From positions 1-26,613 of the IMG/VR virus record IMGVR_UViG_3300037225_000364: a DNA stretch of 26,613 nucleotides; one strand, 5' to 3'. The stretch comes from a virus. The translations under genes were made by a program, and so were the position numbers. Below the pieces are notes generated by a model. It worked only from the letters and a program-made list of their open reading frames with translations. It searched no databases and was not told the origin of the DNA. Below, in pieces: positions 538 through 18,359 of the stretch. The number at the start of each line of letters is the position of its first letter. The stretch's first letter is position 1.

Positions 538-1142
538 CAATCCTTTGTGTTCATTTGCCTAAAATCTTTTGATTTAAATTCAATCTTCACGCCGCCGCTA
601 ATGCGCGACACGAGCCGTGGTCCTAAAAGATCATTAAATTCTTTTCCTGTCAAATTTGTTGTATATATATTTATCAATGCCGGCGAGTTGACGCGGGCGT
701 CGATGAGGCAATGGAGAAAATCCAAGAAGCCTTCGGATGGCTTGCGCAAGCCGAGATCATCGAAAACTACTACCTTGACAGACTTTAAAAATGTCAACCT
801 GGCATAATTTTCGCTGTAATTGCCGAAATTGGCCAACCATTGCTGATTTAGCTCCGCAATGTTGACAAAGCGCATCTCATGCCAAGGAATCTTATCGAAT
901 TTTTCTAAAAAATACATGAGGGCAATGGCTGCATAAGTTTTTCCTCGCCCTGGCGCCCCATGAAAGAGCAAATTGCCGACACATGGCGGCTTACATGCCC
1001 AATCTTTAAGAATTTTGCCCTTACGCTGATTTTCGAGAACATTTTCATCAAGGACAATCGACTTTATTTTCGCTCCAAAAAACGCTTCTGGAATGCCTTC
1101 ACGAATATTATCTTCATTGAACTTTTCTATCGGGATAATCAT
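537..1142 (-). CDS. DnaC-like helicase loader (AAA+ ATPase)
   Basis: About 201 residues, matching the DnaC/IstB-type phage helicase loaders. A Walker A motif GAPGRGKT lies near residue 65 and a Walker B strand VVVFDDLG near residue 125, followed by a sensor-like segment INIYTTNL. Proteins of this family bind the replicative helicase and deliver it to the melted origin. The upstream gene is an initiator carrying iterons, so the pair corresponds functionally to lambda O and P. The chosen ATG at 1142 overlaps the initiator stop (TAATG), indicating translational coupling; an ATG two codons upstream, at 1148, is also in frame. The N-terminal region that would contact the helicase is divergent and I cannot say which helicase it serves. 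Confidence 0.88.
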   Translation of the reverse strand: MIIPIEKFNEDNIREGIPEAFFGAKIKSIVLDENVLENQRKGKILKDWACKPPCVGNLLFHGAPGRGKTYAAIALMYFLEKFDKIPWHEMRFVNIAELNQQWLANFGNYSENYARLTFLKSVKVVVFDDLGLRKPSEGFLDFLHCLIDARVNSPALINIYTTNLTGKEFNDLLGPRLVSRISGGVKIEFKSKDFRQMNTKD

Positions 1143-1942
1143 TACCATGCCTTATCGTATTCGTCTTGGCGCTTGCCACCCAAAACCGCTCTTGAATTTG
1201 TTTTTGCGGAGGACTCATTGTCTTCCAAGGTGCGTTTGTGCACCCAGCCGCCATTTTTCATCGTGTGAAAGTCTGATTTGTATTGCTTGCCTGAGCTGCC
1301 CTTGTATGCGTCGAGAATGTCGAGCATCTTGTCGACGAATGGCGCGCCATGATCGGCAATGAGTTTGTCATGCTGTTCTTTCGACAAAGACACATGATCG
1401 CGAAAAAAAATAAAACCCACCCCCCCACTTTTTTTTGAGGAGGGTAAGGGTGGTGTTAATTCTTCTTCATATAGGTTCTTCTTAATATGTTCTTCTTTAT
1501 GTGTCATTTTGACACTACCCTGGTGTCGATTTGACACTACCCCTGGTGTCGATTTGACACTAGGTAGTGTCATTTTGACACCACCCCCCCCTTGAATAAA
1601 TTCAAAGTTTTCATGCCAAATATCAATAATTGTAATGAGATTTGTATCCCTATCACCACAGTGCGTAAGACGACTAGAATGTTTTATAAGAGGTTTTTTT
1701 AAGATAGAATTTATTTCACAAAGAGAAGGAAGGGTTCGATAAAGAACACTCTTACTAAGACCTGCCTGATTTGCAAGATTTTTTGAAGATCTTGTACATT
1801 GGCTCTTTTCTCCTGCAGATCTTTTAATGGCCATATATAATGCAATTTGGTTTGCGGAAAGACCTATTTCGAAAATTATATGAGGAATTAAAGAAAAGTA
1901 CTTATGATCTGAACTTTCGTCTTGGATTGAGTAATTAGACAT
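1142..1942 (-). CDS. Replication initiator, winged-helix N-terminus (O-like)
   Basis: 266 residues. Residues about 20-95 look like a winged helix-turn-helix (LSANQIALYMAIKRSAGE, then SSKNLANQAGLSKSVLYRTL), as in phage replication proteins of the HTH_36/O type. The middle, residues about 115-165, is low in complexity and encoded by the iteron array and homopolymer tracts, so it is probably a linker. The C-terminal part (residues about 175-245) resembles C-terminal regions of phage O-like proteins that meet the helicase loader. Binding sites within the initiator's own gene, and a DnaC-like gene overlapping its stop, strongly support origin recognition. The ATG at 1942 has only a weak ribosome site (GTGAG). 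It could instead be called a DnaD-like or generic HTH protein. Confidence 0.8.
   Translation of the reverse strand: MSNYSIQDESSDHKYFSLIPHIIFEIGLSANQIALYMAIKRSAGEKSQCTRSSKNLANQAGLSKSVLYRTLPSLCEINSILKKPLIKHSSRLTHCGDRDTNLITIIDIWHENFEFIQGGGGVKMTLPSVKSTPGVVSNRHQGSVKMTHKEEHIKKNLYEEELTPPLPSSKKSGGVGFIFFRDHVSLSKEQHDKLIADHGAPFVDKMLDILDAYKGSSGKQYKSDFHTMKNGGWVHKRTLEDNESSAKTNSRAVLGGKRQDEYDKAW
1459..1500. other. AT-rich repeat block beside iterons, candidate unwinding element
   Basis: Immediately next to the iterons is an AT-rich stretch made of repeated TTCTTC units separated by ATATAGG and AATATG. It lies inside the initiator gene on the side away from its start, as the AT-rich region of the lambda origin lies beside its iterons. 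Inferred role: DNA melting. Confidence 0.5.
1501..1581. repeat. Four iterons, candidate replication origin
   Basis: Four copies of a 15-bp palindrome GTGTC-N5-GACAC lie at 1501-1515, 1523-1537, 1546-1560 and 1567-1581. The centre is ATTTT in the outer copies and GATTT in the inner two. Starts are 22, 23 and 21 bp apart, about two helical turns, so bound proteins would face the same side. The array lies inside the initiator gene, as the lambda origin lies inside O. This is seen directly; origin function is inferred. Confidence 0.8.
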
Positions 1943-3493: not shown

Positions 3494-4096
3494 ATGAATC
3501 AAAGTGAACACATTAACGAATTGGCGACGGCTTTATCAAAGGCTCAGGGCGAGATGCAGGCTGCAATCAAGGATAGTATTAACCCATTTTTCAAGAGCAA
3601 ATATGCCGATCTTGGCAGCGTTTGGGATGCTGCGCGGCCGGTACTTAGCAAATACGGTCTTTGTGTGCTACAAAGTACTGAGATTGTCAGCGACAAAGTC
3701 GTCATGTCCACGATACTTGCGCATAGCAGTGGCCAATGGGTTAAATCAAGTTTGCCACTGAACCCGGCAAAGAATGATAGCCAGGGCATGGGAGCCGCCA
3801 TGTCGTATTTTCGCCGCTATAGTTTGTCAGCTCTGGTCGGGGTTGTGTGCGATGATGAGGATGATGGCGAAACAGCTGTTGGCCGTGGAAAGACACCTCC
3901 AAAAGCTGAAAAGATTTCGATTCATCAATTGCAGAGTTTGACCGATGCCCTTGGCGATGATGACGACTACAGGAAGGTAATTTTAGAGCATTATAAGATT
4001 AAATCACTGGCAGACCTAACCCCGGAACAGCATCAAGTGTGCTTAAGAAAAGCACTGGCGAGAAGGCAAGAACAATTAAAGACGGGGACGAATTAA
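3494..4096 (+). CDS. erf: ERF-family single-strand annealing protein
   Basis: 200 residues. The N-terminal 130 residues match the ERF superfamily (P22 Erf-like): NELATALSKAQGEMQAAIKD, then NPFFKSKYADLGSVWDAARP and, near residue 95, GMGAAMSYFRRYSLSALVG, the family signature around the GxGxxxTYxRRYxLxxLxG pattern. The family binds single-stranded DNA and anneals homologous strands. The last 60 residues are a variable tail. A good ribosome site (AAAGGAG) precedes the ATG. It is in the same operon as a YqaJ-type exonuclease, the usual recombinase-exonuclease pair, which could circularise or repair phage DNA. Confidence 0.9.
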   Translation: MNQSEHINELATALSKAQGEMQAAIKDSINPFFKSKYADLGSVWDAARPVLSKYGLCVLQSTEIVSDKVVMSTILAHSSGQWVKSSLPLNPAKNDSQGMGAAMSYFRRYSLSALVGVVCDDEDDGETAVGRGKTPPKAEKISIHQLQSLTDALGDDDDYRKVILEHYKIKSLADLTPEQHQVCLRKALARRQEQLKTGTN

Positions 4097-4097
4097 C

Positions 4098-4343
4098 ATG
4101 TATTTTCATGAAGCTTATGAAAAGATGAAGCAGGGGTATCTCTTTAAATTTAACGATATCAAATACCGCATATGGGCTGAAACATCCTCGATTGGAAGTT
4201 TAAAAATGCTTGAAAACTGTGAACTTCAATACTATTCAACATATAGCAAAGCATGGAAATTTGCTCATGATGATTTTTTTAATATAAATATGTTTATTAA
4301 ACCCGATTGGGAAATAGGAGAAATTTACGATGGCAAAGATTGA
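4098..4343 (+). CDS. Small early protein, possible DUF2829/Tad2-like fold
   Basis: 81 residues. The start FHEAYEKMKQGYLFKF and the end INMFIKPDWEI follow the pattern of DUF2829-type phage proteins, which begin with an FxEALxxLKxG segment and end in a DWEI-like strand; this family includes the anti-Thoeris protein Tad2. The middle does not match closely, so this is a weak resemblance. It lies between the ERF and exonuclease genes and overlaps the latter by 14 bases. An accessory or counter-defence role is possible but unproven. Confidence 0.6.
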   Translation: MYFHEAYEKMKQGYLFKFNDIKYRIWAETSSIGSLKMLENCELQYYSTYSKAWKFAHDDFFNINMFIKPDWEIGEIYDGKD

Positions 4344-5196
4344 CGTAATCCAAGGGTCGCCGGAATGGCACGAATACCGACGCAAGAAAATCGGGGGGTC
4401 GTCGGCCCCCACCATCATGGGATTGAATAGATTCCAGACGGCCCATGAGCTTTGGGAAGAAATGGTCGGCCTGCGCGAGCCTCAGAAGGAAAATGAGGCC
4501 ATGCGCGAGGGCAAGCGTCTTGAGCCGATAGCGCGCAAGATCGTCGAAGAGGGGCGCGGAATTGTATTTCCTGAAGAAGTACACGACTTAGGCAAATATC
4601 CCCATATTTATTGTTCCTATGATGGGATTAATCATGAGACTAAAGAAATTTTAGAGATAAAATCATCCGTTTGGTTTTACTCTCAGGCAGAAAAAACACT
4701 TGTGCCTGAATCCGTAAATTGTCAAATACAACATGGTTTGATGGTGGCTGGTTATAGCAAAGGAATATTTGCTGCCTGCCATCCGCAGACAGAGAAGGTA
4801 ATCACAATTGGCGTTGAGCGCGATAATGAATTCATTGCTGCCATGTTCGAAAAGGAACTTGAGTTTTACGAATGCGTCACGACATTCAGGGAACCCAAGC
4901 TTACAGATGCCGACTATTTGAACATGCAAGGCAATGATGAGTGGAAATTAGAGAAATTTATCTTTGAGAAGTTCAAGGAAGAAAAGGAACGGATAGAAAA
5001 AAGTCTGGAGGCGTCTAGAAATAGATTGGCTTCCCTCGCTGGCAATCGCAATGCACGCGGCCATGGTTTGACACTGACAAAAGTGTTGACAAAGGGGCGT
5101 GTGAAATACGATGATATACCGGCATTGCAACGCATTGACCTTGATTTATTCAGGGGCGACCCGACGACATCATTTAGATTAACGGTAGGAAAATGA
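4330..5196 (+). CDS. YqaJ-type phage exonuclease (lambda exonuclease family)
   Basis: 288 residues. Family hallmarks in order: an N-terminal GSPEWHEYRRKKIGGSSAP followed by IMGL, the helix EGKRLEPIARKIVEE, an acidic DGIN then EILEIKSS (catalytic D...ExK of the PD-(D/E)XK fold, near residues 97-111), and a QIQHGLMVAG helix near residue 132. The enzyme is expected to degrade one strand of duplex ends 5' to 3', giving ssDNA for the ERF protein encoded two genes upstream. The last 80 residues include a charged coiled coil (KFKEEKERIEKSLEASRNR). AGGAG precedes the ATG. Confidence 0.9.
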   Translation: MAKIDVIQGSPEWHEYRRKKIGGSSAPTIMGLNRFQTAHELWEEMVGLREPQKENEAMREGKRLEPIARKIVEEGRGIVFPEEVHDLGKYPHIYCSYDGINHETKEILEIKSSVWFYSQAEKTLVPESVNCQIQHGLMVAGYSKGIFAACHPQTEKVITIGVERDNEFIAAMFEKELEFYECVTTFREPKLTDADYLNMQGNDEWKLEKFIFEKFKEEKERIEKSLEASRNRLASLAGNRNARGHGLTLTKVLTKGRVKYDDIPALQRIDLDLFRGDPTTSFRLTVGK

Positions 5197-15602: not shown

Positions 15603-18359
15603 CTAATTCACAATCCTGCCACCCTCTCTAAACCAACAATTCATGGCATTCAATTCGAGCGGGTTTTGATGTGTAGCAAGTTGATTCATGAGCGCATCGT
15701 CATAAGTCAGTGCTATCCTTAAGTATTGCCCATATTGCGTAGAGTAGAAACGGTACCAGGCATATTGAGATCCCGAAGTATAAGGCTGGCCATTCGTTGG
15801 CGAACTGTTCCATATGCCCCCTCCTGCATAAGCTGTAAATCCTGTCGCATCAATGCCGTTCAAGCTGAAATTGTTAACATCGATGACCGTGACCGTGAAA
15901 TTTCCCATCATATTGAGCTGAACCATGCCGAGCACATTGCCAATTGCGATGAGCGTTCCCGTGGTCAAACTATGATTCATGCTTGTGATGATACAAGGAT
16001 TTGTCTGCTGCGCATTTGAGATATAACCGGCATTTTGTGATGAATTGAGAAGTTCAAAATTGCCAAGCAGCATGTTGGCTTGAGAATCCTGAGAGACATA
16101 GGAATTGACAAAGAGCTGAATAGTGATTGCCGGAATTGCCGGCGATGCCTGATTAGAATCCAGCTGAAAGTCAATGAATGACAGCTTGAATTGCTTGCCT
16201 GCACTCTGGAATGGGTTGAAATCTTTGCCGACAATGTTCATCTTAGGAAACAAGGTGATCTGACCGCCGCCAAGGTAAACGGCCGATGAGACAAAACTTT
16301 GCGCCACGTAATTTGTTCCATCCCAGAGGCCTAGCGTTAATGTATTTACATCGACAACACTGACATTATAAATGATATTGTTGATAAGCGGATCCGTCCC
16401 AGTCCAGAGGGTGCCAGTGATGTAGATAATTTCGCCATTGAGAAGGTTATGATTCGGCACGGTGAATTGCGTCGGACTAAGGCTAAAATTGACACCCATG
16501 ATCGTGAGCGACGGCGCAAATAGTGTCGGCGCAGGAACCATGGTAGAGGCATCCTGATTCTCATAGATGAAGATGTAGCCCTGCTGGTTGCCGGCAGTCA
16601 CATAATCGACATATGCCTGATCATCGACATTATCCCAGGACGCATCACTTTCCCAGTATGTCGTCAAACTGTCCCAGGTGATGGCAAATTGGAATTGACC
16701 AATTCCGAAGCATGTGATATTGTCTCTGAATTGCGCCCATGTGTTATTGCGATAATTGAATAAAAGCGTAGCATTCGGAAAGTTCTGCGTATTCTGAGAT
16801 TGGGATGAATCCAGGTAATTCCAATAGACGACCTCCTTCTCAAAGTCGCGGACCCCATGGACGAAATTCGGCCCATTGTTTTGTATTTCGAAGCTGAAGA
16901 CGGTCTCAGGAATTTGGTCATCAATGCGTGAAATGCCGGCAGCTCCTGCCTGTATAATCCCACGGTCACTCACCGTCATAATGCCTTGATCAAAGACAAT
17001 TGGGCTATATGTACTCACAGAACCAAAATCGGAACTGATGCGCTCAAAGATGAATGGAAGGCCATACTCGCCAATATAACGAAGTTGCCACGTGGAATAT
17101 TCGAAAAAGACAATAAGCGTATTGCGATGAAATGCCGCACTCACTATTGACTCATTGGTAGGGGCGTCGAGAAAACCGCCAAGGCCGAACATATCATAAC
17201 GCCACGCGTCGGCAGCTATCGGGTTTCCAATCTGGCTAAAGTTGCACCTGGAATAATTGTTGACTGCTCCAAGATAGCCACCACTGGTCAAGCCCTCCCA
17301 AGTGTTGAGCGCAAGAAGACGCCCATAATATGGAATGATGATTAATGCCTGATAAAGGGTTGTTGTTGCAGTCGTCAATGGCTGTAAATTAGTCCATGCC
17401 GAACCATCATAATAACGTATAGGATCATACGTCGGAGGAGTGGCCGCTTGATGAATGTTGTTATTCGTAACAAAGAAATAACGTTCATCGGGAGTCACGC
17501 CTTGATAATTGGCCGCCCAAAAGAAATCGGTATCTGTTCCTGTCCATGTCGTGCCGAGAACTAACTCTTGAAAACCGCCGACGACATATTGATAGGCGTA
17601 TTTCGTATCGAAGTAAATCGTGTTGTCGATGCCTAATTGGGATGTATCTTCTTTCAATATGCCCATGACCGGCAATTGAGGATAATATGAAAAGCTGATT
17701 GTCGCCGCCGTCCCTGGGGTCGTCGTTGAAAAAATCGTTGCAAACGAAGTAAGATAGTTTATTGTCCCATAGTTATTAACATTGATGCTTACCCACATGC
17801 CGCCGCTAGTATAAGCACCAAACCCAGTCGAATCGACCCCATTCAATGTAAAAGTATCGGCTCCTGTGACGGTTATAGTATATGTGTTTCCATTGAGCTG
17901 CGTCATACCTCCAACGCCTGAAATGGTCACTGTTGACCCTGTGAATAAATGATGTGCGGGACTTGTAATCTGACATGGATTAGCTTGAGTAGCTCCTGTT
18001 ATCATCCCTGTCTGAGCGAGCACGCCATTTCCTTGGTCTGTAAATGTTGTTCCGCCATAAACGATGACGACAGAGCCAGGAATAATTACAGCATCGGGTT
18101 CAGTAATGGGAGGAGTGAGAAAAGCATAGATAGAAAAAGGAACGCCGTAGACAATTCCTGTTCCTAGGCTCGCAGCGGTCAATATGCGGCGCAACTGGCC
18201 GACGCCGACCGTTCCTTCACGCTTCTTCGTCCTCTCGCGCCATACATAGGCATTCTGCAAATCAGAGAAAGCTTGGTCAGCAAGCATCAAAGGCTTACGG
18301 TCAGTGACCAAGCCACCGTCCGGATATCCGCCTATCAGCACTTGATGAAATGATGACAT
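15603..18359 (-). CDS. Large tail/head-completion protein with repeated domains
   Basis: 918 residues. The N-terminus (GGLVTDRKPLMLADQAFSDL, NAYVWRERTKKREG) resembles phage packaged-DNA stabilisation or tail-hub proteins (P22 gp10-like). Two copies of a beta domain are clear: residues about 138-190 (NPCQITSPAHHLFTGSTVTI, MTQLNGNTYTITV, GVDSTGFGAYTSGGMW) and about 790-845 (NPCIITSMNHSLTTGTLIAI, GIDATGFTAYAGGGIW); a third, more distant copy starts near residue 615. The central part has tryptophan/tyrosine-rich repeated strands as in a propeller. Likely part of the tail hub that closes the portal. AGGAA precedes the ATG. Confidence 0.7.
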   Translation of the reverse strand: MSSFHQVLIGGYPDGGLVTDRKPLMLADQAFSDLQNAYVWRERTKKREGTVGVGQLRRILTAASLGTGIVYGVPFSIYAFLTPPITEPDAVIIPGSVVIVYGGTTFTDQGNGVLAQTGMITGATQANPCQITSPAHHLFTGSTVTISGVGGMTQLNGNTYTITVTGADTFTLNGVDSTGFGAYTSGGMWVSINVNNYGTINYLTSFATIFSTTTPGTAATISFSYYPQLPVMGILKEDTSQLGIDNTIYFDTKYAYQYVVGGFQELVLGTTWTGTDTDFFWAANYQGVTPDERYFFVTNNNIHQAATPPTYDPIRYYDGSAWTNLQPLTTATTTLYQALIIIPYYGRLLALNTWEGLTSGGYLGAVNNYSRCNFSQIGNPIAADAWRYDMFGLGGFLDAPTNESIVSAAFHRNTLIVFFEYSTWQLRYIGEYGLPFIFERISSDFGSVSTYSPIVFDQGIMTVSDRGIIQAGAAGISRIDDQIPETVFSFEIQNNGPNFVHGVRDFEKEVVYWNYLDSSQSQNTQNFPNATLLFNYRNNTWAQFRDNITCFGIGQFQFAITWDSLTTYWESDASWDNVDDQAYVDYVTAGNQQGYIFIYENQDASTMVPAPTLFAPSLTIMGVNFSLSPTQFTVPNHNLLNGEIIYITGTLWTGTDPLINNIIYNVSVVDVNTLTLGLWDGTNYVAQSFVSSAVYLGGGQITLFPKMNIVGKDFNPFQSAGKQFKLSFIDFQLDSNQASPAIPAITIQLFVNSYVSQDSQANMLLGNFELLNSSQNAGYISNAQQTNPCIITSMNHSLTTGTLIAIGNVLGMVQLNMMGNFTVTVIDVNNFSLNGIDATGFTAYAGGGIWNSSPTNGQPYTSGSQYAWYRFYSTQYGQYLRIALTYDDALMNQLATHQNPLELNAMNCWFREGGRIVN

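Follow-up and report, generated by a model that had tools for sequence, protein, structure and literature searches.

The replication origins of phages lambda, P22 (genes 18-12) and phi80 (genes 15-14) share a layout in which four dyad-arm iterons, 20–24 bp apart, lie in the middle of the initiator gene, with an AT-rich side toward the 3' end of that gene and a loader or helicase gene next to it. The iterons of lambda (CCCTC-N5-GAGGG) and P22 (TTACC-N5-GGTAA) are built around the same 5-bp spacer (PMC7466680). For most phages known from sequence alone the origin is unknown, and the 26.6-kb viral record analyzed here (26,613 nucleotides, referred to as the window) provides a clean case that can be read from sequence. 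The window exhibits the same layout and spacer, while its arm sequence, GTGTC-N5-GACAC, differs, and its loader is DnaC/IstB-like rather than lambda P. The initial annotation had described a lambda O-ori-P arrangement with a different iteron, and this description stands for the mid-gene dyad iterons, the 3' AT-rich tract and the adjoining loader gene. That the array is the phage's replication origin, bound by the protein of its own gene and serving to recruit the loader, is highly probable by analogy with these systems.

Four exact copies of GTGTC-N5-GACAC were found on the minus strand, all within the initiator gene (1142–1942, minus strand, 266 aa), against 0.01 expected from dinucleotide shuffles, and their positions and 21–23-bp steps are exactly those first claimed for them. 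In gene order, iteron 1 (1567–1581) and iteron 4 (1501–1515) have the sequence GTGTCAAAATGACAC and encode VKMT in codon phase 1, iteron 2 (1546–1560) is GTGTCAAATCGACAC and encodes VKST in the same phase, and iteron 3 (1523–1537), also GTGTCAAATCGACAC, encodes VSNRH in codon phase 0; the steps between the four palindromes are 22, 23 and 21 bp. Read with their spacers on the plus strand, the outer copies are GTGTCATTTTGACAC and the inner copies GTGTCGATTTGACAC. The array is positioned mid-gene, 362–442 nt into the coding sequence, and no further copy with 0 or 1 mismatch is present elsewhere in the window. With three copies in phase 1 and one in phase 0, the gene reads its array in two frames. 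The phase-0 copy carries the spacer AAATC, where the spacer shared by the two outer copies would read TGA, a stop codon; the stop is avoided and the arms are constant, showing that the spacer adapts to coding.

A scan of viral contigs for two GTGTC-N5-GACAC palindromes 20–24 bp apart returned at least 119 stretches, compared with 1 for a reversed-arm control. At 100 of 117 loci, among the matches listed, the array lies in a gene with a related winged-helix domain encoded upstream, the domain search being based on homology to the O protein of Escherichia phage mEp554 and using only the part of each gene upstream of the first iteron, since inclusion of the iteron-encoded part would have been circular. 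In these relatives the first iteron begins at gene nucleotide 300 (median), and 94 of 104 unique genes spread their copies over two or more reading frames. Use of more than one frame, in the window and in the relatives, means that the DNA is conserved and not the peptide. At two loci the perfect copies, five to six in number, immediately follow a short winged-helix gene and lie outside the coding sequence (L007, 11869–11991; L009, 3202–3302), so the array need not be coding. These observations bear on whether the repeats are instead a coding feature, a disordered linker (VKMT/VSNRH) selected as peptide with no role for the DNA. The iteron region does encode a linker that is mostly of low confidence in the structural model (pLDDT below 50 for residues 112–129 and 148–182), but two-frame use within the window gene already contradicts such selection, as do the multiple frames in the relatives, the two arrays outside coding sequence and the covariation of the arm letters with the recognition helix described below, leaving this explanation scarcely credible.

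Each copy could also form a 5-bp hairpin, and in a separate genome collection 49 of 68 loci with arrays had no related winged-helix gene over the array and were set aside; both points would suit a mobile or structural repeat (a REP-like element, RNA hairpins or a recombination site) lying in the gene by chance. Such a repeat is nevertheless very improbable here, given the lack of any copy elsewhere in the window, the placement of the viral-contig arrays in initiator genes and the covariation with the recognition helix. Other arrangements of the palindrome were also observed. One locus (L010, 1019–1395) has three clusters of GTGTCGAAATGACAC, with 4, 2 and 3 copies, within 400 bp and outside any recognizable initiator gene. 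Five loci in filamentous cyanobacterial genomes (L141, L145, L163, L178 and L182) show tandem arrays of near-GTGTC-N5-GACAC sequences at exact 21-bp steps without an initiator gene, and these are probably unrelated.

The AT-rich tract that had been noted beside the iterons is located at 1441–1500, on the gene's 3' side of the array, and is a candidate DNA-unwinding element. It contains two 14-nt direct repeats (1471–1484 and 1485–1498), and its 60 nt are 68% AT compared with 60% for the rest of the initiator gene, a modest difference in a gene that has AT-richer 30-nt stretches elsewhere. The relatives show the same one-sided enrichment: the first 60 nt on the 3' side of the array average 58.7% AT, compared with 47.4% for the rest of the gene (enriched in 85 of 93 genes; Wilcoxon p = 2e-14), and the enrichment is gone in the following 60 nt (48.6%, 93 genes). 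The coupling to a DnaC-like gene is likewise borne out. The gene for a DnaC-like (IstB-type AAA+) helicase loader at 537–1148 on the minus strand overlaps the initiator gene by 7 bp, and its product matches phrog_50 (DnaC-like helicase loader, E 5e-30) and also IstB-like ATPase. Among 27 genes downstream of initiators, 7 match DnaB-like helicase families and 2, the window's included, match DnaC-like loaders.

The initiator was modeled with AlphaFold2 from 27 sequences (mean pLDDT 63). The model is composed of a confidently predicted N-terminal winged helix (residues ~22–116, pLDDT above 90), in keeping with the winged-helix gene first proposed to hold the iterons, followed by the linker encoded by the iteron region and by C-terminal helices (residues 175–216). 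The recognition helix spans residues 64–76, which places residues 65 and 69 about one turn apart, and S65 and R69 project from one face of it in the model. Codons 65–69 (SVLYR; 1736–1750, minus strand) were assigned by alignment together with the position of the helix in the model.

Membership of the lambda O family by sequence was ruled out: the window protein gave no match to PF04492 (Phage_rep_O) with E up to 10 in a search that detected the lambda (6e-36), phi80 (6e-25) and P22 (7e-38) proteins. The window protein scores 18.5 bits against HTH_36, under the curated Pfam cut-off of 25, and gives a weak match (16.6 bits, E 0.0028 for 10000 sequences) to a profile of mEp554 O-type domains built with the window left out. 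Judged from these sequence profiles, the protein belongs, as a divergent member, to the HTH_36-like phage initiators, a large group already labelled replication initiation or O-like in phage databases. The initial annotation had called the initiator apparently unrelated to that of lambda, which agrees with the PF04492 result, but the protein is not isolated and belongs to this large group. Its C-terminal residues 180–245 (1208–1405) match the phage replisome-organizer family phrog_13246 (2.6e-15), a match not found in mEp554 O, and the C-terminal part seems to have been exchanged while the DNA-binding part and the iterons stayed together. No close relative of the full window protein was found in the search of related loci, and a single-protein scan of the collection returned its own source as the sole match; nine diverse domains, when aligned, diverged too far for the alignment to serve in such a scan.

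Other arms with the same 5-N5-5 geometry occur in related initiators, with paired palindromes in 96 viral stretches for GTGAC and at least 120 for GTGCA. The arm classes were collected through exact palindrome pairs, which under-represents degenerate arrays, and the in-depth comparison covered three arms. The winged-helix domains of these classes were aligned and thinned to 63 GTGTC, 34 GTGAC and 60 GTGCA representatives, and helix positions were numbered from index 0, the opening column of the recognition segment (EISKSTAMRAVDAL in mEp554, where this column is E). Two positions track the arm. Arg is present at index 8 in 57/63 GTGTC, 32/34 GTGAC and 1/60 GTGCA representatives, and it predicts a half-site ending in C in 89 of 90 cases. 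At index 4, Ser is found in 41/63 GTGTC, 1/34 GTGAC and 1/60 GTGCA representatives and Arg in 10/63, 32/34 and 54/60, respectively. The combination of Ser at index 4 and Arg at index 8 predicts GTGTC in 41 of 42 cases (40 of 41 with the window removed) and is found in only 1 of the 94 representatives of the GTGAC and GTGCA classes together. The residue at index 8 has a mutual information of 0.83 with the arm class, and that at index 4 has 0.61; both values lie 24–25 SD above shuffles, compared with a z of at most 3.6 at the remaining 12 helix positions, which act as an internal control for common descent.

Common descent was further addressed with 35 pairs of initiators with unlike arms, in which a later pair was left out whenever its identity to an earlier one, measured outside the helix, exceeded 70%. 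Among the separated informative pairs, 29/29 agree at index 8 and 20/21 at index 4. The cleanest pair, L124 (SKSTAMR, GTGTC) and L304 (SKRTAMR, GTGAC), shares 96% identity outside the helix. The window helix is GLSKSVLYRTLPSL, with S65 at index 4 and R69 at index 8, a combination that predicts GTGTC and matches the observed arms. The code has exceptions at the fourth base. The 10/63 GTGTC representatives with Arg at index 4, most of which have Gln at index 7, indicate that index 4 alone is not decisive, and mEp021, which has Ser at index 4, Arg at index 8 and Asn at index 2, has GTGGC/GTTGC arms, so that at least one further helix position matters. Arms and recognition helix thus covary across the classes, which at the level of sequence shows protein and site to be a matched pair. 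We consider a two-residue code likely, whereby, with a shared GTG outer arm, Arg at index 8 would set the fifth base as C and index 4 (Ser or Arg) would help to set the fourth (T or A). The origin would then be partly predictable from the initiator protein, and natural single-residue changes would have accompanied switches of origin specificity. Our search of the open-access literature found no description of such a recognition code or of a wide GTGTC iteron class, an absence that does not prove novelty.

Once fixed, the rule was applied to cultured phages starting from their proteins, with arrays considered significant at a shuffle p of at most 0.01. The fifth base was predicted correctly in 8 of 8 newly fetched cultured phages with a significant array, and the fourth base in the 2 of 2 new cases to which the prediction applies, Psychrobacter Y8A and Vibrio D290 (GTGAC); a significant array was not found in 8 other newly fetched cultured phages. 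Six phages examined before the rule was formulated all fit at the fifth base, with mEp021 (GTGGC, Asn at index 2) failing at the fourth base. Because several of the phages checked closely resemble sequences in the training classes, and eight of the newly fetched ones lacked a significant array, these results count as support and not as a blind test. When two bacterial classes were surveyed protein first, the yield was mostly winged-helix proteins without detectable iterons, consistent with a code that covers initiators with arrays and not the fold at large. Among six new arrays from that survey, those with GCGCA, GTGAA (two arrays) and GCAAG arms and a GGGTC-like pair conform to the rule for the fifth base, in numbers too few for a test, while L542 (a weak pair, CGACC, with Lys at index 8) breaks it.

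By analogy with lambda O, we infer binding, melting, loader contact and origin firing at the window array. Dimers of the 1142–1942 product would dock on the four palindromes by way of the recognition helix of the winged-helix domain, with R69 and S65 predicted to read the bases on the inner side of each GTGTC arm. With four such dimers positioned two helical turns apart, the DNA could be bent or wrapped, and the AT-rich tract 3' of the array would open. The C-terminal part of the initiator is then predicted to recruit the DnaC-like loader (537–1148), which would put the host DnaB helicase onto the DNA. The palindromes might instead serve copy control as titration sites, or be operators through which the winged-helix protein represses or times the operon that encodes it, with the origin elsewhere. 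In favor of this reading, structure matches of the model are to winged helices in general, with MarR-type repressors close, and the covariation ties the protein to its site but is silent on what binding does. An operator role is nonetheless unlikely, since the sites are positioned far into the coding sequence rather than at a promoter, the AT-rich tract is one-sided, helicase or loader genes adjoin in some relatives, and in the lambda, P22 and phi80 records this layout is the known origin. The GC skew, a check proposed in the initial annotation, does change sign near 2–2.5 kb, but the change coincides with a change of gene direction, and because of this confounding GC skew was not used as evidence for the origin reading.

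Several additional features of the window were observed. On the plus strand, a near-consensus promoter, TTGACT-17-TATAAA, is present at 1960–1988 (identified by eye, outside the scanner's rule), and two strong hairpins follow at ~2009–2062 (fold z-score −5.5), the second of which is terminator-like. The region 1960–2070 is a candidate for a ~70-nt RNA transcribed from the plus strand, away from the initiator gene, at the position that the oop RNA occupies in lambda; the P22 and phi80 records have oop-type features annotated there as well. An imperfect inverted repeat with 29-nt arms (79%) at 1970–2030, just upstream of the initiator gene and overlapping the promoter, could be an operator. An Erf-like annealing protein and a RecE/YqaJ-like exonuclease form a recombination module at 3494–5196 on the plus strand, opposite to the replication module. 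The 918-aa protein encoded at 15603–18359 is a distant match to the tail tubular B protein of Pelagibacter phage HTVC035P, and the phage perhaps combines a podovirus-like tail with a lambda-like replication module. No close relative was found through a structural gene, and the window contains neither an exact terminal direct repeat nor an Rfam match.

The survey suggests a general rule for how initiator proteins choose their origins. Such a rule would help to predict origins in uncultured phages, and it would suggest how related phages that share a host keep their replication apart. It would also open the question of specificity to testing, since natural pairs of proteins exist whose recognition helices differ at a single residue.

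The RepA_N initiators of plasmids and satellites (pSK41, pTZ2162 and Vibrio PLE RepA) and the DnaD N-terminal domain have a winged helix similar in fold to that of the window protein. Fold matches of the window N-terminal domain include 4pt7 (Z 9.2), 4pql (Z 9.4), 5kbj (Z 8.2) and DnaD 2v79 (Z 8.7), scores that many MarR-type or unrelated winged helices equal, and no RepA_N or DnaD_N profile match was listed for the window protein. RepA_N proteins act as dimers on semi-palindromic iterons (PMC7145576), and their iterons, 8–9-bp repeats converging on an A tract, are unlike those of the window. A close parallel for the array is in mEp554, which has four GTGTC-N5-GACAC palindromes at steps of 23, 22 and 23 inside its annotated O gene; the paper describing this phage does not discuss its origin and mentions neither ori nor iteron (PMC11893012). 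As in the window, the mEp554 array is read in two frames and accompanies a related winged-helix domain. The two proteins share ~29% identity over residues 25–147 and have unrelated C-terminal parts, and the mEp554 record, unlike the window, has no recognized loader gene directly adjacent. Set beside these systems, the site itself is of a known kind, and the two-residue code is the interesting part.
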